The notes below the pieces were generated by a model. It did not search any database. It was given only the letters and a program-made list of their open reading frames with translations, and had not been told where the DNA came from. Shown here one piece after another: positions 5,304 to 40,315 of a stretch of DNA of 52,370 nt. The position numbers and the translations under genes were made by a program. The number at the start of each line of letters is the position of its first letter. Position 1 is the stretch's first letter. The stretch covers positions 21,765 to 74,134 of the forward strand of contig ONNQ01000020.1 in the NCBI GenBank assembly GCA_900319245.1. The letters are read 5' to 3'. The stretch is from an uncultured Lachnospiraceae bacterium (lineage in GTDB: Bacteria; Bacillota; Clostridia; Lachnospirales; Lachnospiraceae).

Positions 5304-6980
5304 TTAGATTAGTATAATTTCCAGGATTCTCTTCGTATCAGGCGTAACCATATACGCAGCGCTGATCCGCCCTCCGGGCACCCACAGGATTTCATCCCCG
5401 CATGCGGGCATCACAATTTGGTCTCTCCATTGTGCCGGCACTTTCTGGTCGATCATATAGCGGGCGATGGACTTGGTCCGACCGCTCTCGTCAAGCGTAA
5501 TATAGTCTCCCACACGTCTTGTCCTAAAACTTAGAAGCTCCCCTATTTTACCATAATCAAGCCATTTCGTACACTGCTTTCGGGGCACAGTCCCCATATC
5601 CCCGTCAAAATCGAAGACTCGGTATGTGTACGCTTCCGGGTGCGTGGGGAACAGCGCCTGATTATGAGCGGTCGGCTGGGGTGACTTCTGTGCAATCGGC
5701 TGGATTGGCTTCTGTGCGATCGGCTGGGCTGACTTCTGTGCGATTGGCTGGGCTGACTTCTGTGCGATTGGCTGGGCTGACTTCTGTGCGATTGGCTGGG
5801 CCGGCAGTCTCGCGAGGGCATTCACGCCGGGTTCAAAGAGCAAATTTTCATATTCTTTTCTCACGTGCACGCCACCGGCGACGTCCAGCTGTCCGTTTCC
5901 CTGCTTCCTGCATAGGTTTAAAACAGCTTGCACATGAATGTCATGCAAGTCCTTCTTCCTGCCGGCCGCCTCTGCAATCGCCGCATAGACCACGCGCCTC
6001 TGCAGAAGCGGAGGCTCTGCCAGAAGCGTTGGAATGTGAAGAGTGATTATCTTCTCCTCCACAAGGCGTCTTCCTGCATCGATTTGCACGGTTTTCCTTC
6101 CCACATCGCTCCGCACAAGACACCTTTGCAATGCACGTTCTGTCTCACCAGCCAGATACTGTTCTGCTTCTGCAACTTCTTCAGCCGCCCTTGCGATGTG
6201 CTCTTTTGCCCCTTCATTGATTGTCAGCAGAAGCGGCATCACTTGCTTTCGCAGAAGATTTCTCGCGTAGCGCACATCCTCGTTGGTTTCATCCTCTCTC
6301 CAAACAATGCCGCGCTCTTTCAAGAAATCTTCAATTTCTTCCCGGCTGCAGCACATGAGAGGCCGAATGATCCGTCCATTGACGGGCAGCATTCCTCGAA
6401 GTCCTGTCAGCCGGCTGCCCCGCACAAGATGAAAGAGCACTGTCTCCGCCTGGTCCTCGATGTGGTGCGCTACCGCAATGCGGCATTGGGTCTGTGAATT
6501 GGCTGCTTTAGCTTGTTTCCGGACCTCTGTATCCTGCCTTCGGGCTTCTGTATCTCCTTTCGCCGCTTCTGCATCCCACGCTACCGCTGCTTTTTCCAGC
6601 GCCTCATACCGCAAATGGCGCGCAGCTTCTTCTACCGACATTCCATTTTCTGCAGCATAGCGCGCTGCATCCACGCGTACCGCTTGAAAGGGAATTCCCG
6701 CTCTCTCGCAGAATTGTTTGACGTATTGAAGATCGCCCTCTGCGCTCTCCCGCAGGCCATGATGCACATGCAGGACGCGAACCATGAAATCAACTTGCTT
6801 TTCTTGTGGCGGCAGCTGCTGCATTTCCTTTTGCGCTTGCGCCTGCATTTGCTTCTGCAACTCCAGCAGGACCTGCAGCAAGCACATCGAATCCGCACCG
6901 CCTGAGACAGCGGCCAGAATGCGTTGTCCCGGTGCGATCATATGTTGGCTTTCCATGTACTGGTAGACCTTTGCGATCAT
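5304..6980 (-). CDS. tilS: tRNA(Ile)-lysidine synthase TilS with an internal octapeptide repeat
   Basis: Attaches lysine to C34 of the CAU-anticodon tRNA-Ile so that it reads AUA. The PP-loop SGGADS is at residues 26-31, followed by the N-type ATP pyrophosphatase core. The ATG at 6980 has AAAGGAG 9 nt upstream; an in-frame extension to 7085 would run into the divIC terminator and lacks homology. At 558 aa it is longer than the usual ~450-470 aa. The extra length includes a run of AQPIAQKS-type octapeptides at about residues 393-437 (24-bp DNA repeat, 5671-5803) just before the C-terminal domain, plus a Gln-rich insertion at about 60-75 and an Ala/Glu/Lys-rich insertion at about 140-165. Confidence 0.93.
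   Translation of the reverse strand: MIAKVYQYMESQHMIAPGQRILAAVSGGADSMCLLQVLLELQKQMQAQAQKEMQQLPPQEKQVDFMVRVLHVHHGLRESAEGDLQYVKQFCERAGIPFQAVRVDAARYAAENGMSVEEAARHLRYEALEKAAVAWDAEAAKGDTEARRQDTEVRKQAKAANSQTQCRIAVAHHIEDQAETVLFHLVRGSRLTGLRGMLPVNGRIIRPLMCCSREEIEDFLKERGIVWREDETNEDVRYARNLLRKQVMPLLLTINEGAKEHIARAAEEVAEAEQYLAGETERALQRCLVRSDVGRKTVQIDAGRRLVEEKIITLHIPTLLAEPPLLQRRVVYAAIAEAAGRKKDLHDIHVQAVLNLCRKQGNGQLDVAGGVHVRKEYENLLFEPGVNALARLPAQPIAQKSAQPIAQKSAQPIAQKSAQPIAQKPIQPIAQKSPQPTAHNQALFPTHPEAYTYRVFDFDGDMGTVPRKQCTKWLDYGKIGELLSFRTRRVGDYITLDESGRTKSIARYMIDQKVPAQWRDQIVMPACGDEILWVPGGRISAAYMVTPDTKRILEIILI
5671..5803. repeat. 24-bp tandem repeat inside tilS
   Basis: About five to six head-to-tail 24-bp units, each containing GGCTGGGCTGACTTCTGTGC or a close variant, encode AQPIAQKS octapeptides. 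Because the unit is a multiple of three, copy-number change would lengthen or shorten TilS without a frameshift. Confidence 0.9.
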
Positions 6981-7054
6981 GGCTCGCTGCTCCTTTCTGC
7001 GTGAATTGTATTGTTTGTCAACTGCAGCTCCTCCCCAAATCCACACATAGGAAA

Positions 7055-7080
7055 AAGCCGCCGCCACCCGGCGACAGCCT
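7055..7080 (-). terminator. Hairpin after divIC
   Basis: An 11-bp stem with G-U pairs (minus strand AGGCTGTCGCC / GGCGGCGGCTT, loop GGGT) followed by TTTCC, immediately after the divIC stop and about 75 nt before the tilS start. It looks like a moderate intrinsic terminator separating divIC from tilS. Confidence 0.55.
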
Positions 7081-7081
7081 T

Positions 7082-7393
7082 TCATTCCGATGATGCTTCT
7101 TTGAAGATCACTTCTCCTTCATAGACGAGGCCCAGCTTTTCACGGGCAACTTCTTCGATGTACTCTCTCGTCTCGGTATATTTCCTATATTCCTCGATGT
7201 CCTCGGCCCGCTGCTCTTCCTTGACGATCTCCGACTGCAGTTCACTGATCCGCTCCCGGTTCTTGACGAGTCTCTGGTATAGTCCAAAGCAGGCGACCAT
7301 GATCACAACAATCAGGATTCCGACGACTACCGCGGCGAGCCCCATGCTCAGTTTGTTCTGCTCATTTTGCTTGGCAGATTTCTCTAACGCCAT
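7082..7393 (-). CDS. divIC: Septum formation initiator, DivIC/FtsB family
   Basis: 103-aa bitopic division protein: short cytoplasmic tail, one TM helix at about 17-40, then a coiled coil (about 43-75) and a short extracytoplasmic end containing the family-typical AREKLGLVYEGEVIF. It acts in the FtsL/DivIB/DivIC complex of the divisome. The start at 7393 has GGAGGAG upstream; the longer in-frame reading back to 7486 has no ribosome site and no family match. Its place between rqcP and tilS is the classic Firmicutes arrangement, but yabP and yabQ, usual in spore formers, are missing. Confidence 0.9.
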   Translation of the reverse strand: MALEKSAKQNEQNKLSMGLAAVVVGILIVVIMVACFGLYQRLVKNRERISELQSEIVKEEQRAEDIEEYRKYTETREYIEEVAREKLGLVYEGEVIFKEASSE

Positions 7394-34255: not shown

Positions 34256-34331
34256 CTGGGTGGGTTTGGCGATTATTACTGGAAATTGGATGTGTTGGGC
34301 GGCTACGAGGGGGTGTGGATCGCGGGAGGGG
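34256..34331 (+). other. G-run-rich, strand-skewed intergenic segment
   Basis: The plus strand has six runs of three or more G within 76 nt (34258, 34262, 34297, 34309, 34324, 34328) and is strongly G/T-biased. Loops are too long for a canonical quadruplex. It sits between the amidase promoter and repeat array A. No gene is seen. Confidence 0.4.
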
Positions 34332-34360
34332 CCATGTGGTCCTTGATTTTTAGTATGATT

Positions 34361-34560
34361 GGGCACAGGGGTTGTTTTTCTTGGAAATATACTACATGGG
34401 TTTCTTGGTTTTTGCTCTTTTGGGCACAGGGACCGTTTTTTGAGATTTGTACTACTCGGAAATTTCTTCTGGTTGGCTCGTTTGGGCACAGAGACCGTTT
34501 TTCCAGATTTGTACTACTTGAAAATTTCTTCTGTTCGCCTCTTTTGGGCACAGAGGATGA
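34361..34560. repeat. Tandem array A of ~62-bp intergenic repeats (plus orientation)
   Basis: Three full units and the start of a fourth begin with GGGCACAG at 34361, 34422, 34484 and 34546 (spacing 61, 62, 62). Each unit runs TTGGGCACAG, then a T-rich part, then (units 2 and 3) GATTTGTACTACT and AATTTCTTCTG. Identity is about 60-85 % between units. Open frames across it are by-products of the repeats and have no ribosome site or family resemblance. Confidence 0.9.
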
Positions 34561-34596
34561 TTTTAACAATTTAGAATCCTTCGTAAGTTGATTCTC

Positions 34597-34831
34597 ATGG
34601 GGAACAAATCAGAGAATTATCTTCTTGTGCCCAATTGCTACAGTATGAGCGAATTCCTATGGGGAACAAATCAAGGAAATTTCTCCCTGTGCCCAATCAC
34701 TACAGTATGAGCGAATTCCTATGGGGAACAAATCAAGGAAATTTCTCCCTGTGCCCAATCACTACAGGATGAGCGAATTCCTATGGGGAACAAATCAAGG
34801 AAATCTCTCCCTGTGCCCAATCGCTACAGGA
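34597..34831. repeat. Tandem array B of exactly 62-bp repeats (minus orientation)
   Basis: Four units with ATGGGGAACAAATCA starting at 34597, 34659, 34721 and 34783, each followed 30 nt later by GTGCCCAAT and a CTACAG block; the middle units are almost identical. Read on the minus strand the unit is TTGGGCACAGGGA, 9-10 nt, GATTTGTTCCCCAT, which aligns with array A with the same 22-nt distance from GGGCACA to GATTTGT. Arrays A and B are therefore copies of one family in opposite orientation. Confidence 0.9.
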
Positions 34832-34852
34832 TAAGCGAAAATCAGCAAAAGA

Positions 34853-34884
34853 AAAAGCACTCAACATAACTGTTGAGTGCTTTT
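34853..34884. terminator. Probable original terminator of the tRNA-Gln gene
   Basis: Perfect 13-bp stem AAAAGCACTCAAC / GTTGAGTGCTTTT with a 6-nt loop and U-runs on both sides. On the minus strand it lies 9 nt past the attL copy of the tRNA 3' end, so before the element arrived it would have directly followed tRNA-Gln. Now it is 5.2 kb away. Confidence 0.75.
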
Positions 34885-34893
34885 AAAATCAAG

Positions 34894-34910
34894 CAGGGCT
34901 AGAAGGATTC
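34894..34910. other. attL core of the integrative element
   Basis: 17-bp CAGGGCTAGAAGGATTC, identical to the last 17 nt of the tRNA-Gln gene at 40093-40109 and in the same orientation. The next base differs at both ends. This is the footprint of integration into a tRNA 3' end. Confidence 0.9.
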
Positions 34911-34949
34911 TAGCACTAAAGCCTTTGTTTATGCCGTCTAAGCAGTATT

Positions 34950-34969
34950 TAACTCACTTTGTAACTCAC
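34950..34969 (+). repeat. Left arm-type repeat
   Basis: TAACTCACTTTGTAACTCAC, present identically at 39940-39959. It contains two direct TAACTCA copies 11 nt apart, 40 nt inside attL. It is likely bound by the integrase N-terminal arm domain (inference). Confidence 0.75.
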
Positions 34970-34979
34970 CGTCATTGAA

Positions 34980-36134
34980 TTACATGAAATTCACCGCATT
35001 TAACTGTTCCTGTTTTCGCTCACTCATTACATGCGCATACAAAGCAAGTGTCATTTGGACATCTGTATGGCCCATGATCTGCATTAGCGTATTTACATCC
35101 ATCTTACTTTCCACACACCTGGTTGCGAAGGTATCGCGAAAAGCATGTACTGAAAATGTTTCTATACCGGCCGTTTTACAAATTTTTGCAATATCGGCAT
35201 TAACATTTGCTGATTTCAACAGCCCGCCGCGCGGTGCTCTAAATACAGGAACTCCAATTGTTACAATTCCATTTAACATTTGTGCGACGTTCTTCTGATC
35301 GTTCCATGCTTTCTTTGAAGCATCATTCAGTGGGATAGTTCGCCGGCCGGCAGCGGTCTTGGCTTCTTTCCCGATCTCATAACCACCGCACTCTGTGCGG
35401 GTAATAGTCCGGCATACCTTCACGACGTCGGTGCTAACATCACCGATCATAAGCGCGCCGGCTTCCCCGATCCTGCACCCAGTATTGAGTAGGAAAACAT
35501 ATAGATTGTAATACCATGATTCTGCAGCAGCCGACAAAAAAGCATTTGTTTCCTTGACCGTCAATGCGCGGTGAATTGTATCCTTTGCGGCCGCCTCAGT
35601 CCTTTTCAAGGGCTTTACGCTCACAGGGTTATAGATCACTGCTCTTTCTTCTATCGCGGTCTTATAGACCTGTTTAAGAAGGTAAATTGCATCATTCGTC
35701 GCGCGGGTAGACATGCCATTCCGCAACACTTCCTTGCCATTCTTATCTTTGGTCTTTAATTCCTTACGAAGCGCCTTTTGAAGATCGCGCACATTCTGAA
35801 CCTCAACCGCCGTCAGTTTCAAATCTCCAAATCTGTTTCCGGCCTTGTCGATCATTGTATCCCTGATCCTGTTTAGTAGAATCTTGTCTGTTCTGATCGT
35901 CGTTTCTTTGACTGTCCCTGTTTTGGCTTCGATCCATCTATCGAAGTATTCCGATACAGTCAGCTTATCGGCTTTCTTGTATGTACCTGCTTCGATCTCT
36001 TTTCGCTTGGCGTCTTCTTTCTCTTTACATTCCTTTTTAGTCTTGCCGTAAACCGAATAACGCCGCTGATCTATTGTAAACTGGTATCTTAACCCATCTT
36101 TATATTTTGAAAACCCAACAGGCAACCTTGCCAT
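34980..36134 (-). CDS. int: Tyrosine site-specific integrase
   Basis: 384-aa recombinase: N-terminal arm-binding domain (about 1-65), core-binding SAM-like domain (about 65-170) and catalytic domain with R221 (NTGCRIGEA), H330 and R333 (SVHAFRDTFATR), the late HxxD-type GHTDVQMT and nucleophile Y366 (LALYAHV). All catalytic residues are intact, so the element may still move. It ends 70 nt from attL, facing it, in the Tn916/phage integrase manner. It should recombine the 17-bp tRNA-Gln core. Confidence 0.95.
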   Translation of the reverse strand: MARLPVGFSKYKDGLRYQFTIDQRRYSVYGKTKKECKEKEDAKRKEIEAGTYKKADKLTVSEYFDRWIEAKTGTVKETTIRTDKILLNRIRDTMIDKAGNRFGDLKLTAVEVQNVRDLQKALRKELKTKDKNGKEVLRNGMSTRATNDAIYLLKQVYKTAIEERAVIYNPVSVKPLKRTEAAAKDTIHRALTVKETNAFLSAAAESWYYNLYVFLLNTGCRIGEAGALMIGDVSTDVVKVCRTITRTECGGYEIGKEAKTAAGRRTIPLNDASKKAWNDQKNVAQMLNGIVTIGVPVFRAPRGGLLKSANVNADIAKICKTAGIETFSVHAFRDTFATRCVESKMDVNTLMQIMGHTDVQMTLALYAHVMSERKQEQLNAVNFM

Positions 36135-36156
36135 ACTCTACTCCTTTCGTTCGTGG

Positions 36157-36210
36157 GCTTTCGTCTTTGTCCGTGATGTTTTATCTAAATCCATTATGAA
36201 CCATCACGGA
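36157..36210. repeat. TCCGTGAT repeats upstream of the integrase
   Basis: Inverted repeat TCCGTGATG (36170-36178) / CATCACGGA (36202-36210). The stretch CTTTGTCCGTGATG at 36165-36178 also matches, inverted, the loop of the hairpin at 40042-40083 (GTTTGTCCGTGATAG). Could be an integrase operator or accessory recombination site. Confidence 0.55.
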
Positions 36211-36234
36211 ATTACTGACAATACTATTTCCCAC

Positions 36235-36387
36235 CTACTTTCTTGCAAGAATAACCAATGCAATCAGCGAACAGATACAAACAGCCGTCAATCTGCGGTT
36301 TATGACTTCCATTCGAAACAATTCGCCTTCATGGACAAAATAAGGAATTGTCACACATTCGTTTAGTTTCTGATTGTCCGACGTCAT
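36235..36387 (-). CDS. Small phage-type membrane protein
   Basis: 50 aa: soluble VTIPYFVHEGELFRME start and one C-terminal TM helix (about 30-47). Similar short VTIPxFVHEGE... + TM proteins are common in clostridial prophages; function unknown. The start at 36387 has AAAGGAG 9 nt upstream; an in-frame extension to 36426 has only a weak site. It lies between the terminase-like gene and int. Confidence 0.6.
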   Translation of the reverse strand: MTSDNQKLNECVTIPYFVHEGELFRMEVINRRLTAVCICSLIALVILARK

Positions 36388-36489
36388 GAAAAACTGCTCC
36401 TTTCTTCTCTTTTTCTCATTTTCCAAATATAAGCGGTATTATGCGGAGCGCTTTTCTTTTTTAAGTACTCCGCAAAATTCCGCATTTGG

Positions 36490-36888
36490 TTATGAAAAGA
36501 ATCCATCGTCACCTGGCTCAGATGTTTCTTTTACAAGATCTGCTTCCCACGCTGCTCTATCCTCGAATTCCTTCATGCGACGTTCAAGCCCATCTGCATA
36601 ATTCACAATGAATTTTGCAGCCTGGATCCTCACCGTGTCATCTGCATCCTCATTGTTTAGAATTAATTCAACCATGGAAACTGCCAACTTCACTGAATCC
36701 CTCAAAGCGATCAGCGCGCCGCTCAAATACTCCGCACGTGCGGTATTATAGATCTGCATGAAAGAATGATTTTTCATTCTGTCGTATATCTCAAATTCTG
36801 AGCATCCTGCGTGCTCCGCTGCTTCTGCAATAGTATTCTTAGACATAAGCGCTATAATAATCTTGTTGTCGTCAATCTTTTTTGCCAT
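36490..36888 (-). CDS. HTH protein resembling small terminase/phBC6A51 family
   Basis: 132 aa. N-terminal helix-turn-helix (NTIAEAAEHAGCSEFEIYDRMK, about 19-40, here split by a Cys), followed by a long helical ARAEYLSGALIALRDS segment and a HEAT-like ARIxAAKFIVNYA helix. The layout matches phage small-terminase-like HTH proteins. In a satellite this could direct packaging of the element; equally it could be a regulator. GGTGG precedes the ATG. Confidence 0.6.
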   Translation of the reverse strand: MAKKIDDNKIIIALMSKNTIAEAAEHAGCSEFEIYDRMKNHSFMQIYNTARAEYLSGALIALRDSVKLAVSMVELILNNEDADDTVRIQAAKFIVNYADGLERRMKEFEDRAAWEADLVKETSEPGDDGFFS

Positions 36889-37004
36889 ATATCCACCTTT
36901 CTTTTTTTAGGGCTGCAATAATGGAATTATTCGTTCTGATTTTCCTTTTTGTGGATTTGCTCTTGAAAAATACCATTATTGCAGCCACTTTAGAGCCAAT
37001 AAGA

Positions 37005-37250
37005 TCAGGACTTTTTTATGAAATCCGGCCACGTCGCGCGGATAATCTCGACTTGCTGTCCCCTGGTCATGTTCTCCATCTTTTGCAAGTCGTCTGTATC
37101 TGAATCAACAGCGCGCCTTGCTATTGCAGGGAAAAGTCCCGCAGCACTGCAAGAAGCCATGAAATCAAGCTCTAATCCTCGCGCATGCAGTATTGTAGTT
37201 ATCTGTTCCGGCGTACAACCGGCAGCGCTTAAAAAACTTCGATTAATCAT
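37005..37250 (-). CDS. Small element protein, unknown
   Basis: About 81 aa with no recognised domain; helical, with CTPEQITTILHARG near the start and RGQQVEIIRATWPDFIKK at the end. Several in-frame ATGs exist (37310, 37280, 37262, 37250); the last has GGTGG 5 nt upstream and sits just before the stop of the upstream gene, which suits coupled translation. Start uncertain. Confidence 0.5.
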   Translation of the reverse strand: MINRSFLSAAGCTPEQITTILHARGLELDFMASCSAAGLFPAIARRAVDSDTDDLQKMENMTRGQQVEIIRATWPDFIKKS

Positions 37251-38139
37251 CTGATCCACCATCCTGGTATTTTGTTTCATCGGACTGCATACCGTCGTTA
37301 TTGTCCGCATATCGGCCTTCTAAGGCGTTCTGCAGTCTTTGTGTATTGATTTGCACGTTACTGGCCATAAACGCTTTCTCGGCCGCCTTCGCTGCTTTTT
37401 CGGCGGCTTGTGCGGCCTTTTCTGCAGCCGATACTGCTCTATCTGCTACACTATGCTTTGCTACAGGTGTAATTGCCTTATCAAACTGTGCCACCTGTTC
37501 TGAACTAAGGCCAAAAAGCATATTAAAAAATTCATCTTTGGTTTTGAAGTGCGGCCGGTCCTTTGCAGTAGCAATGACCCCATGATGGTCTTTTTGATAT
37601 GCAGCCTGGATCCTGCTAGCCTTTGATTTTTCGGAATTCATAAAATCAACAATCCCGCTTCTCATCGACTTGACCCACCGTTCTGCAGTCGATCCGCTAA
37701 TCTGGTCCGACAATTGTTCATAGTGTGTTCCTGTTATTCCTTTATCCAAGGCAATCTCAGATAAAAGAGAAAGCACAATCGGAGTATCTTTGCATGTTTC
37801 TGCTATTCCATCCAGCTCTGAACGTTTCACATTCTTCTTGAGCATTAACGCCTGTATTAACGCCATCTGATCCGGCGTCGGCGCCTTTGTCTGCATGGAT
37901 CCAATGACCTGCAGCATGCCATCAAATATGGCATTAAAATAGCCGGAATACTCCATGCGAAGTTTGCTTAAATCATTGTCGCGTTCTTCCGCTGCTTTCC
38001 GGCTTCGAAGTCCATAAGCCTCTGAACCTTCAAAACCTCTCAAAGCATTGATCTTGTCAGTGTACACACCAATAATCTCTGCTCTCTTTCCCTGGAATTC
38101 ACTCGCCCTTTTATAAAGGGCATCTGTTAATGCTACCAT
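37243..38139 (-). CDS. 298-aa element protein with Ala/Lys/Glu repeat, unknown
   Basis: Largest non-integrase gene of the element. N-terminal ~60 residues are charged and helical; the middle is globular. Residues ~235-255 contain AEKAAQAAEKAAKAAEKAF, a heptad-like Ala-rich helix repeating AAEKAAx, and the C-terminus is Asp/Gly-rich. No family recognised; could be a scaffold-like or DNA-associated phage protein. Encoded between the DUF6291-like gene and the small unknown gene, all on one transcript. Confidence 0.65.
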   Translation of the reverse strand: MVALTDALYKRASEFQGKRAEIIGVYTDKINALRGFEGSEAYGLRSRKAAEERDNDLSKLRMEYSGYFNAIFDGMLQVIGSMQTKAPTPDQMALIQALMLKKNVKRSELDGIAETCKDTPIVLSLLSEIALDKGITGTHYEQLSDQISGSTAERWVKSMRSGIVDFMNSEKSKASRIQAAYQKDHHGVIATAKDRPHFKTKDEFFNMLFGLSSEQVAQFDKAITPVAKHSVADRAVSAAEKAAQAAEKAAKAAEKAFMASNVQINTQRLQNALEGRYADNNDGMQSDETKYQDGGSDD

Positions 38140-38154
38140 CTATTTACCGCCTTT

Positions 38155-38721
38155 CTAGTCATACTTGATGTTTACCGACTGCCTTTTTCTATTCCATGCA
38201 TCAATCATTTCCTGTTCTTCCTTGCTATAGGCAGGGTTTCCCCTGGACCCCTTCCCCATCTCCACCCACCTACCGCTCTCGGAATCGGAATCACTATCAC
38301 TTACACCCACACTGCCCATTCCCTTTGCGCTATCACTGTCCTTTACTCTTTCCCTATCCTTTACAATATCCATATCGGCTTTATTGGCTTGTGTTCGGTT
38401 GCCTTCGCTTGCGGTTGTAAGCGCTCGGTTGCCTTCGCTTGCGCTCGGTTCATTCTGTTCTTTTGGCCTTCCACCTTTCGATCCGTTCTCCGAATTGATC
38501 CTGCAGCGCTCCTGGTACTTTTCATCATCGCGAACAATAGCATTTCGAAACACTGTATAAAAGCCCATCAGCATGCCATCATCTGTTATAAGCTCTTTGC
38601 CATTGCAAGCAAAATTGAATAACGCTTTGAACAGTATTCCGGCCTGCTCATCCGTACACACATTAACCAACGGTGCATTGTCCTTGTATATCAAAAAAGA
38701 TTTATGCTCCGCCAATTCCAT
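38155..38721 (-). CDS. DUF6291-like phage/element protein
   Basis: 188 aa. The first ~65 residues (KSFLIYKDNAPLVNVCTDEQAG ... split, ending in ALFNFACNG) fit the DUF6291 pattern found in phage and element replication regions, followed by RCRINSENGSKGGRPK and a Ser/Asp/Glu/Lys-rich tail with two copies of ASEGNR. Likely a replication-region protein; biochemical role not known. The ATG follows AAAGG by 6 nt and overlaps the end of the upstream HTH gene by about 20 nt. Confidence 0.65.
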   Translation of the reverse strand: MELAEHKSFLIYKDNAPLVNVCTDEQAGILFKALFNFACNGKELITDDGMLMGFYTVFRNAIVRDDEKYQERCRINSENGSKGGRPKEQNEPSASEGNRALTTASEGNRTQANKADMDIVKDRERVKDSDSAKGMGSVGVSDSDSDSESGRWVEMGKGSRGNPAYSKEEQEMIDAWNRKRQSVNIKYD

Positions 38722-38992
38722 CACCTGCCTTTTTCATTGCTCCAAGGGTCTTGATTGATCCATGCGCAGCTCTGTTTATGCGCTTAAAGTATTTCCTGAT
38801 CTCTGAATCGGCGATCTCTGGCCGCGCGTCCGGCAAGTAATACCCACGTTCTGAGCTGAGGATCACAATACCGCTTCTTCGCTCTTTCTGTACATGCCTT
38901 CGAATAGTTCTTGCATTGCAGTCAAATTGGGCTTCCAACTCCGCGCTATGAATAGCGTTCATTTCTCCCCGCTGCAGTCTTTCCGCGATCAT
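38702..38992 (-). CDS. HTH protein of the element (DeoR/HTH_11-like)
   Basis: 96 aa. A winged HTH covers about 15-60 (SAELEAQFDCNARTIRRHVQ followed by GIVILSSERGYYL), then a helical tail with RKYFKRINRAAHGSIKTLG. Such wHTH-plus-helix proteins often sit in phage replication modules. Its ATG overlaps the stop of the previous gene in ATGA, giving tight coupling. Confidence 0.7.
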   Translation of the reverse strand: MIAERLQRGEMNAIHSAELEAQFDCNARTIRRHVQKERRSGIVILSSERGYYLPDARPEIADSEIRKYFKRINRAAHGSIKTLGAMKKAGDGIGGA

Positions 38993-39192
38993 TCACTTTC
39001 ACCGGCCATCGAATCAAGCGCCTTGTCTAATACGCGCTTGTCAACTCTGATCACTGATCCGAAGCGCCTTATAGCGCCAATATCATCGAAGTACTTCCTG
39101 GCAGTGTTCCGGCTCAATCCGCTATACAGTGTCGCTTCCTGCAGTGTCAGCATCCTTGTATTGTTAATATCGCCTCTTGTGGCCTTATTCAT
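38989..39192 (-). CDS. Excisionase-like HTH protein (DUF6462 type)
   Basis: 67 aa with a MerR/excisionase-type HTH: MLTLQEATLYSGLSRNTARK then a wing with FGSVIRVDKRVLDKAL. This form is common in small integrative elements next to the repressor and may act as recombination directionality factor or as activator (AlpA-like). First gene divergent from the repressor; GAGG 8 nt upstream of the ATG. Confidence 0.7.
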   Translation of the reverse strand: MNKATRGDINNTRMLTLQEATLYSGLSRNTARKYFDDIGAIRRFGSVIRVDKRVLDKALDSMAGESE

Positions 39193-39258
39193 TTTTCAAA
39201 CCTCGCTTTCGTCTGAGTCCGTTTAACTTGCTACGGTGCACCTTGTGATGTTACAATA

Positions 39259-39363
39259 ACATAAATAATTATGTATTGTCGCCCACAAATTACATGCGGT
39301 TTTATGTATGTAAAAAGCGTTATATTTGACGTTTTGCACCATATATAACGCTTTATACATAAA
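39259..39363. promoter_or_regulatory. Operator region between the divergent element genes
   Basis: Contains three copies of TTATGTAT (39269-39276, 39302-39309, and inverted at 39355-39362), the palindrome ACATAA-ATAA-TTATGT (39259-39274), and a perfect 12-bp inverted repeat AAAGCGTTATAT / ATATAACGCTTT (39314-39325 and 39343-39354). It lies exactly between the two divergent starts, the expected place for repressor binding. Confidence 0.65.
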
Positions 39364-39381
39364 GGAAGGAGTCTAATAATC

Positions 39382-39942
39382 ATGTTAGAAGAATCAATAA
39401 ATGAGTTGAGAAAAGAGAACATAAGAAAAATAATTGAAGAGAAGCATTTGACGAAAAAACAGTTTGGAGAAATTGTAGGTGGTGAAGCAGATAAAAAGAC
39501 AGGCATTGCTACACCAATGCACCCCAAGAATGTTTCAACATATTTAAGCAAAAGAGGAAAGATAACGGATAAACTTTGTAAACGAGTATGGGATGCATTT
39601 AAGGCAGATTATGATTTAGAGTGGATCATGGGCGAAAGCCCTTATAAAAATCGCGAAGAAGAAAAAATAACAAAACTAATTGAACTCAACAAACAGCTTG
39701 CCGACTCTCATCGTGACGGCGTAACAATAAACAATTCCATCGCTGCTCTTGGACACTTTAGTGGCTTTCAGTTTGATTTTGATAAATCGAATAATCCATT
39801 TGATGCAGGTATTTTTGTTACGATCACTCGCGACGGCGTTACCTGGCAATTGTCAGTTGATGAATGGGGGGACTTGCAGAATCAGATATGTGATTATATT
39901 GAATTCGCCATAAAGCATCTCCCTTCAATAACTCAAAAATAA
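39382..39942 (+). CDS. Repressor-like HTH protein of the element
   Basis: 186 aa. N-terminal Cro/CI-type HTH (about 12-75: LTKKQFGEIVGG ... PKNVSTYLSKRGK ... WIMGESPY) with an insertion between the helices, then a ~100-aa C-terminal domain (about 85-186) with no protease motif. Likely keeps the element silent by binding the operator region upstream; opposite orientation to the other element genes is typical of master repressors. AAGGAAGGAG lies 10 nt upstream. No LexA-like Ser-Lys cleavage site is visible, so induction may be by a partner protein. Confidence 0.7.
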   Translation: MLEESINELRKENIRKIIEEKHLTKKQFGEIVGGEADKKTGIATPMHPKNVSTYLSKRGKITDKLCKRVWDAFKADYDLEWIMGESPYKNREEEKITKLIELNKQLADSHRDGVTINNSIAALGHFSGFQFDFDKSNNPFDAGIFVTITRDGVTWQLSVDEWGDLQNQICDYIEFAIKHLPSITQK

Positions 39943-39977
39943 CTCACTTTGTAACTCACTTTTAACTCAATAACTCA
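39929..39977 (+). repeat. Right arm-type repeat cluster
   Basis: Five direct AACTCA copies spaced about 9-11 nt, including the 20-bp sequence shared with 34950-34969. The cluster lies about 115 nt inside attR, as expected for integrase arm sites. The remaining gap 39978-40041 and the stretch 40166-40315 hold no recognisable gene. Confidence 0.7.
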
Positions 39978-40041
39978 CCAAATACATAATAATAGGACGG
40001 CGCTTCACGGCGCCGTCCATTGCTAGAAAATAGCATAAATA

Positions 40042-40083
40042 AAGGCTTTTCGGCGTCTATCACGGACAAACACGAAAAGCCTT
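40042..40083 (-). terminator. Element-supplied terminator for tRNA-Gln
   Basis: 11-bp stem AAGGCTTTTCG / CGAAAAGCCTT with a 20-nt loop, followed on the minus strand by TATTTATG, 9 nt past the tRNA 3' end. It replaces the native terminator displaced to 34853-34884. Confidence 0.6.
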
Positions 40084-40092
40084 AAATCTCTA

Positions 40093-40109
40093 CAGGGCTA
40101 GAAGGATTC
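40093..40109. other. attR core within the tRNA-Gln 3' end
   Basis: CAGGGCTAGAAGGATTC, same as attL at 34894-34910. It is made of the discriminator base, the 3' acceptor strand and part of the T arm, so tRNA function is preserved after insertion. Confidence 0.88.
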
Positions 40110-40165
40110 GAACCTTCAAAATGACGGAGTCAGAGTCCGCTGCCTTACCGTTTGGCTATAGCCCT
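40093..40165 (-). tRNA. trnQ: tRNA-Gln (anticodon CUG)
   Basis: 73 nt. Acceptor AGGGCTA / TAGCCCT, D arm GCC...GGC, anticodon stem GCGGA / TCCGT with loop CTCTGAC (anticodon CTG, reading CAG), T arm GAAGG-TTCGAAT-CCTTC and discriminator G. CCA is not encoded. It serves as the insertion site of the element. Confidence 0.93.
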
Positions 40166-40315
40166 TTATATATGTAAACGGCTTCGTGCCGGTTACAAAG
40201 CAGTATTATAGAGTAAGGTTTGAGATTTGACAAGACCTTTTTCCAAAAATTTTCTTCCAAAAATAATTTCAGATTATTTCCACCAAACCAGCATTATTTG
40301 CACGGTATTTCATAA

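Follow-up and report, generated by a model that had tools for sequence, protein, structure and literature searches.

The 52,370-base stretch of contig ONNQ01000020.1 of an uncultured Lachnospiraceae bacterium studied here (hereafter the window) carries a 5.2-kb element that is bounded by direct repeats and inserted at the 3′ end of a tRNA-Gln gene. The element is probably a minimal phage satellite resembling the phage-inducible chromosomal islands (PICIs), which uses its own small terminase subunit (TerS) to redirect the packaging motor of a helper phage. This reading gains further weight from the presence of TerS without the large subunit (TerL), and from sister elements of similar build. A first-pass annotation, made from the letters of the window, had proposed a compact satellite-like integrative element; this is upheld as the best reading, with dependence on a helper as something that we infer.

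The identification of the 132-aa product as TerS is firm, because a PHROG match (Table 1), the two best PDB sequence matches and a homologue overlapping a TerL gene all point the same way. When a six-row TerS profile was run against all PDB sequences and matches with E up to 1 were listed, the two best of 24 were small terminases (7joq, 3.6e-4, and 6w7t, 4.1e-3), and TetR-type regulators made up most of the following ones (E 0.06 and above). The structural model (mean pLDDT 83) has an N-terminal three-helix region of helix-turn-helix (HTH) type followed by two long helices forming a helical hairpin, and an HTH region with two long helices is the build of small terminases. In the sister element L008 the TerS homologue overlaps the gene for TerL (phrog_2, 9.9e-47), the only case in which the gene lies beside terL. 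TerL is absent from the available sequence of the window element and of the sisters L005, L020 and L021; the L019 sequence stops at the edge of its contig. In the phage collection the window TerS matched a single record, the Streptococcus satellite Javan343 (MK448444; L004), where the match is an unannotated open reading frame (ORF) at 6865-7266 (31% over 65% of the window TerS, E 5e-5). TerS-carrying elements are uncommon, since a search with the single protein matched 2 of 99 relatives and the six-row profile 5 of 299 genomes of the host family (those with the window element, L005 and L019 to L021), the window element and L005 being themselves rows of that profile. The same evidence bears on a quite improbable alternative, in which the element is self-sufficient or passive and unpackaged, excising and reintegrating or riding on conjugation, with the TerS-like protein acting as a regulator. 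TerS-like proteins do consist of an HTH and a helical hairpin, the weaker PDB profile matches do include TetR-type regulators, and integrases of similar divergence lie on contigs that by eye resemble other mobile elements; against this stand the small terminases as the two best profile matches, the overlap with terL in L008, and the absence from the nine element proteins of any relaxase or transfer family, the genes characteristic of integrative conjugative and mobilizable elements.

Sister elements with similar control genes and TerS were found in the genus, the family and the class; their replication genes differ from those of the window element, and some also encode TerL or a tape-measure protein. 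In common they have genes for a repressor, HTH proteins, replication and TerS, and the integrase lies at either end. In the same genus, L005 is located beside a lysS-like gene and consists of repressor, HTH, HTH, helicase, primase, TerS, small genes and integrase, with short repeats (TTGGTGTAAA) at both ends and remaining ORFs too small for TerL, portal or capsid. L008 (6283-15870 of CANQFV010000047.1, a metagenome-assembled genome of the Oscillospiraceae) is a 9.5-kb element in tRNA-Met between 45-bp attachment (att) repeats, which encodes primase/helicase, a RusA-like protein, TerS, TerL and a homologue of the 298-aa protein of the window element, and has an integrase frame with an in-frame stop. 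No capsid or portal was recognised among the L008 proteins scanned, and L008 thereby represents a satellite type with the packaging motor only. L020 (1272-15831, G970:C24) spans 14.5 kb in tRNA-Thr, has 45-bp att and arm-like repeats, and encodes integrase, repressor, a RepA-like ATPase, TerS and a 961-aa tape-measure protein (phrog_1535, 1e-73); TerL, portal and major capsid were not found among the scanned proteins, with six further ORFs (64-192 aa) outside the scan. L021 (125-11771, G298:C24) carries TerS, a 222-aa protein, a 946-aa tape-measure protein (phrog_1535, 1.7e-109) and a DNA helicase, again with no TerL, portal or major capsid among the scanned proteins; its TerS match in the genome search includes one TGA, and its status as an element is less sure because the outer end is cut by the contig and the available part has no integrase. 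L019 shows integrase, repressor, HTHs, ATPase and TerS up to the contig end. Arm-like short repeats are present at both ends in L005, L008 and L020. A 363-aa protein beside the repressor of L020 (3270-4361) matches phage 'minor head protein' profiles with its C-terminal part (8.9e-13), and a similar-looking 227-aa protein occupies the same place in L021; these are possibly a cargo domain. Two IMG/VR contigs, L010 and L011, carry TerS alongside ParA-like or replication-type genes (by eye) and could be plasmid-type satellites; by eye, structural genes were not recognised on them, and the stretches examined (L011 in part) held no terminal repeat. According to one report (PMC12987554), the phage-inducible chromosomal island-like element PLE11 of Vibrio cholerae supplies its own tape-measure protein for the chimeric tails that it builds, and putative tmp genes are shown there in PLE-like elements and in capsid-forming PICIs (cf-PICIs), so that L020 and L021 appear comparable to PLE11 and their precedent is already in print.

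The boundaries of the window element are well defined. The core repeats and the insertion in tRNA-Gln noted in the first-pass annotation are borne out as an exact 17-nt repeat whose second copy is the tRNA-Gln 3′ end. An inner exact repeat, TAACTCACTTTGTAACTCAC, occurs in both ends of the element (34950-34969 and 39940-39959), and the motif TAACTCAC has five copies in the window, all within the two element ends, where 0.71 would be expected and none of 100 shuffles reached five. Core-type and arm-type sites are the layout expected for a tyrosine integrase, as in lambda-like integrases, and the inner repeats would fit integrase arm sites as expected. The integrase itself lies between the att repeats, as in phage satellites. 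GC content is 43% in the element versus 54 and 55% in the 10-kb flanks, and 4480 of the 5216 bases (86%) are coding, in nine genes that are all open and in part overlapping.

An empty site was sought in relatives with the tRNA and a trkH-like gene as query. At least part of this query was matched in 60 of the 62 genomes of the genus; in 16 of these the region beyond the tRNA was compared by blastn. In 15 of the 16, the genes of the window's left flank adjoin tRNA-Gln without the element, the last flank match ending 69 to about 2,750 bp from the tRNA, and the sixteenth (L056) stops at a contig edge. No element DNA was matched in any of the 16 regions, and no longer prophage with the element's DNA was seen at the site; blastn could miss a very diverged insert in the longer gaps, and no gap is roomy enough for 5.2 kb. 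The best case is L055, in which flank similarity extends to within 69 bp of the tRNA. In the three junctions read (L053, L055 and L057) a hairpin directly precedes the 17-bp sequence and then the tRNA, so that the unoccupied loci show the boundary; in the window the corresponding hairpin (34853-34884) precedes attL, 5.2 kb away from the working tRNA. The hairpin evidence rests on position, because the terminator scan as a whole was near chance (8 sites found versus 5.3 in shuffles, standard deviation 2.4). Given the empty site in relatives and the hairpin displaced beyond attL, the locus carries an insertion, which parted the tRNA from its hairpin, and not the stump of a prophage. As to use of the att site by prophages, 15 of the 16 congeners are without this element; they include no strain of its own species, and the short DNA segments that separate flank and tRNA are unannotated.

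Replication genes set the window element apart from its sisters. All five sisters found in genomes (L005, L008 and L019 to L021) carry primase or helicase in some form, in contrast to the window element, which has a 189-aa DUF6291 protein. DUF6291 is present in 4 of 80 genomes of the host family, the window's genome among them, and by eye the other three genes lie in phage-like neighbourhoods: in L071 the gene adjoins an HTH protein and a RusA-like gene, and in L072 it precedes a DnaC-like ATPase. In the phage collection the domain is present in 16 records, mostly of Vibrio and other marine or aquatic phages. A further match, L068, was dropped, as it is surrounded by housekeeping-like genes (by eye). 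Within the DUF6291 gene of the window, the 19-bp repeat was reached by none of 300 synonymous reshuffles; it would fit an origin inside the initiator gene, on the thin evidence of two copies. Because the element is without a primase or helicase of its own, it would need those of the host or the helper.

The best candidates for factors of helper interference or of packaging or capsid assembly are two proteins encoded beside terS, of 298 and 81 aa. Both had been described in the first-pass annotation as without a recognised family, and so they remain, the 81-aa protein as part of a mechanically listed ORF of 101 aa. For the 298-aa protein no family was found at E 0.01 (one PHROG at 0.044) and no relative in the phage collection or the viral contigs; it matched itself only among 99 relatives and among 344 genomes of the order. 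The one homologue found is a 225-aa protein of L008 (31% over about 134 aa, E 1.3e-13), and a pattern-limited scan of a collection of 84,980 species returned one sister, on the same contig as L008. Among 391 genomes of the class there were three matches, itself, L008 and L009, the last being an alanine-rich chance match that by eye overlies a ribosomal-protein L10-like gene and was rejected. The structural model, built from two sequences, is all-helical with a mean pLDDT of 71 (mostly 76-90 over residues 1-170). Foldseek gave no PDB match at E 0.001, and among viral models it ranked highest two siphovirus proteins, both uncharacterised (E 0.016 and 0.023, probability 1.00). Proteins of similar position and build stand beside terS in L020 and L021, and a 205-aa family occurs in four Javan satellites (the four records matching the Javan343 protein are all Streptococcus satellites, itself included); kinship with these, which would rest on position and a short motif, is not claimed, the best hhalign P for the window group (0.037) being unconvincing. 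PADLOC returned a single match, in which SoFic aligned with the coiled-coil stretch of the 298-aa protein (3.7e-4); it was judged spurious, and with this one weak match in a scan that left out the integrase, a defence island was dropped as a reading. It also seems very improbable that the element is a satellite that mainly benefits its host by anti-phage interference, TerS being a decoy that jams helper packaging with little transfer: the missing replication helicase and capsid genes, the several proteins without an assigned role and the interference of known satellites with helpers (as described in PMC10690885) would all suit it, against which integrase and arm sites are kept intact and PADLOC gave nothing credible.

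Several results weigh against the satellite reading. Foldseek matched the TerS model to nothing in the PDB at E 0.001, its weak matches being regulators and the Bacillus phage protein 2ao9. Compared with the three prophage-type versions read, the window DUF6291 protein is reduced in length and by eye seems to be without their C-terminal part; no origin lies 3′ of this gene, where the gap is only 15 bp. Family scans of the nine element proteins found no primase or helicase, nor any TerL, portal, capsid or tail family, in keeping with the first-pass statement that structural and transfer genes are missing; three of the nine are without a family and could hide an unrecognised structural role. No helper phage is known for the element. 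The portal model PF04860 and the TerL model PF03354 matched nothing in the window's genome (G000, 87% complete) and nothing in four of the five other element-bearing genomes, only G411 being matched, in a search blind to some TerL types, PF03354 having missed the TerL of L008, itself in G411. A search of G000 only with phrog_2, a model that does detect the L008 TerL, yielded a single match, weak and partial, to a 919-aa frame that lies outside the element. As far as this non-exhaustive search goes, a resident helper would thus not be evident in the window's genome. Among viral contigs, no relative turned up when the query was the arm repeat, TerS by itself, or the 298-aa protein either singly or as a two-row alignment; for the integrase a single match, at 25%, lay in a 34-kb contig, and a four-row TerS profile matched two other contigs.

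Some of these results would also suit a prophage remnant, that is, a temperate phage that lost its structural half and left integrase, regulators, replication protein and terS between the att sites. HTH and DUF6291 genes form a module known from prophage-like regions (L071, by eye), the window's DUF6291 protein seems cut short, primase and helicase are absent, and the PHROG relatives of TerS are phage proteins. This explanation ranks second to the satellite and is unlikely: no gene is broken, the att cores and arm clusters are intact, genes overlap at the high coding share given above, elements of similar plan, with different integrases and replication genes, occupy other sites, and the element is unmatched at the site in all 16 relatives, which also answers the first-pass concern that it might be the decayed end of a prophage.

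Phage satellites have been studied mostly in cocci, enterobacteria and vibrios, and to our knowledge few helper systems are known in the bacterial class considered here. A TerS-type satellite of 5.2 kb that has neither primase nor helicase raises the question of how little equipment can suffice for a satellite, and the sisters with TerL or tape-measure protein form a graded series in the share of the particle that the thief supplies; because of this series, the order in which hijacking functions were gained and lost becomes testable in this class. The window element would work like a TerS-type PICI, of a known kind and as an unusually small example. We file it as PICI-like rather than as a member of a described group because it departs in at least one tested feature from each of PICIs, PICMIs (phage-inducible chromosomal minimalist islands) and cf-PICIs. 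With the PICIs and Staphylococcus aureus pathogenicity islands (SaPIs) of Gram-positive cocci, as two sources depict them (PMC6092414, PMC10690885), it shares a site-specific integrase, a divergent control region, TerS and the lack of structural genes, its own terS being the SaPI-type packaging redirection that not every PICI has. It differs from them in having no primase or replicase gene and only a DUF6291 protein, in having a two-copy repeat inside the replication gene instead of an iteron origin directly 3′ of it, in the integrase at the tail of the operon, and in size, 5.2 kb versus a PICI average of 9.5 kb stated in PMC10803314. The PICMIs of Vibrionaceae are comparable in size (PICMI115, 6.1 kb), minimal gene set and AlpA-like regulator; in contrast, they are primase-bearing and sited by fis, and PICMI115 showed no terS, whereas the window element lies in tRNA-Gln with terS and no primase. 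L008 recalls cf-PICIs in carrying TerS and TerL, but cf-PICIs are described as also encoding capsid, protease, portal and connectors, none of which was recognised in the window element or the scanned L008 proteins. Javan343 is alike in its integrase, divergent regulators, replication genes, unannotated TerS-like ORF and lack of annotated structural genes, and unlike in its 9.1 kb, a 536-aa gene annotated as primase, an integrase beside the repressor-side genes and Streptococcus as host. A literature search by title and abstract, which is no proof of absence, found nothing on satellites of this lineage; the first-pass rating of the element as the most likely undescribed system thus holds for the lineage, within the searches made, and not for the kind, PICI-like satellites being known.

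A wider proposal can be put forward only tentatively and with considerable doubt: that the class harbors an undescribed lineage of TerS satellites, with the window element as the smallest seen, in which a constant core (repressor, HTH proteins, TerS and integrase) is joined to an exchangeable theft kit (a bare TerS with a helical protein; TerS with TerL in L008; TerS with tape-measure protein in L020 and L021), that the window form has given up primase and helicase, and that its 298-aa protein represents a helical family, specific to satellites and encoded next to terS, with a function in redirecting packaging or the assembly of capsids.

In the mechanism that we envisage, the repressor would keep the element silent until a helper phage relieves repression, the integrase and the excisionase-like protein would then excise it via the 17-bp cores, and the DUF6291 protein would initiate replication, for which the host or the helper would provide helicase and primase. 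TerS might bind a satellite site, perhaps the palindrome next to terS, and bring the TerL of the helper to the satellite's DNA, which would then be packed into helper capsids. Repressor release, excision, replication and TerS-guided packaging are established satellite biology (PMC6092414, PMC10690885).

Table 1. Features of the tRNA-Gln element and its borders, in window positions
Feature	Position	Strand	Evidence or remark
Host-side terminator-like hairpin, outside the element, beyond attL	34853..34884	-	Matches position of relatives' hairpin next to tRNA-Gln
attL core	34894..34910		17-bp exact copy of tRNA-Gln 3′ end, CAGGGCTAGAAGGATTC
Putative left integrase arm-type site	34950..34969		TAACTCAC x2; repeat count
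Tyrosine integrase, 384 aa, intact	34980..36134	-	PF00589 3.6e-22; phrog_1 2.5e-57
63-aa protein, C-terminal hydrophobic (membrane-like) segment	36235..36426	-	Sole match phrog_29397, E 0.087
TerS, 132 aa, no terL beside gene	36490..36888	-	phrog_2538 (terminase small subunit) 8.9e-8
Imperfect palindrome just upstream of terS, candidate packaging or regulatory site	36911..36986		22-nt arms, 91%; RNA fold z -6.3, 0/200 shuffles
81-aa protein	37005..37250	-	No family match; longest ORF 101 aa from 37310; start overlaps stop of 298-aa gene
298-aa all-helical protein	37243..38139	-	Homologue downstream of terS-terL in L008
DUF6291 protein, 189 aa, phage replication-type	38155..38724	-	PF19808 2.7e-20; relatives' phage context by eye
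Two perfect 19-bp repeats, 30 bp apart, inside DUF6291 gene	38395..38443		Possible origin iterons
HTH protein, 96 aa	38702..38992	-	phrog_2113 2.4e-9; HTH_11 2.6e-4 (below cut-off)
Excisionase/AlpA-like HTH protein, 67 aa	38989..39192	-	HTH_17 1e-3 (below Pfam cut-off); phrog_66 3.3e-3 (weak)
Palindrome in divergent control region, candidate operator	39307..39361		22-nt arms, 91%; fold z -4.2
Divergent repressor-like protein, 186 aa	39382..39942	+	phrog_3 9.2e-4; phrog_8 1.2e-3 (weak)
Putative right integrase arm-type sites	39940..39978		TAACTCAC x3; repeat count
Element's own terminator-like hairpin adjoining tRNA (putative)	39995..40018	-	9 pairs, 8 G-C, T tail
attR core within tRNA-Gln	40093..40109		Exact 17-nt copy of CAGGGCTAGAAGGATTC
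tRNA-Gln(ctg), intact, integration site; sole tRNA of window	40093..40165	-	Its 3′ end is the attR core

An Rfam scan of 34300-40300 at gathering thresholds matched the tRNA and no further RNA family, and an RNA element was accordingly dropped as a reading. To the left of attL and outside the element lie two 62-bp repeat arrays in opposite orientation (34360-34838, about four copies each), which were not found in the compared regions of the 16 relatives. On the minus strand the genes run from the control region as 67-aa excisionase/AlpA-like, 96-aa HTH, DUF6291, 298-aa and 81-aa, followed by TerS, the 63-aa membrane-like protein and, last, the integrase. The integrase was correctly described in the first-pass annotation as an intact tyrosine integrase, and the divergent repressor-like and excisionase-like genes are likewise present, on weak calls by hidden Markov models; of its two additional HTH proteins one is the 96-aa protein, and the second HTH is that of TerS. 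Four faecal phage contigs (L074-L077), taken from the listed integrase matches (1075 records matched), look by eye like other mobile elements and were dropped. The 96-aa HTH protein can be aligned with proteins of L005, L008 and L010.

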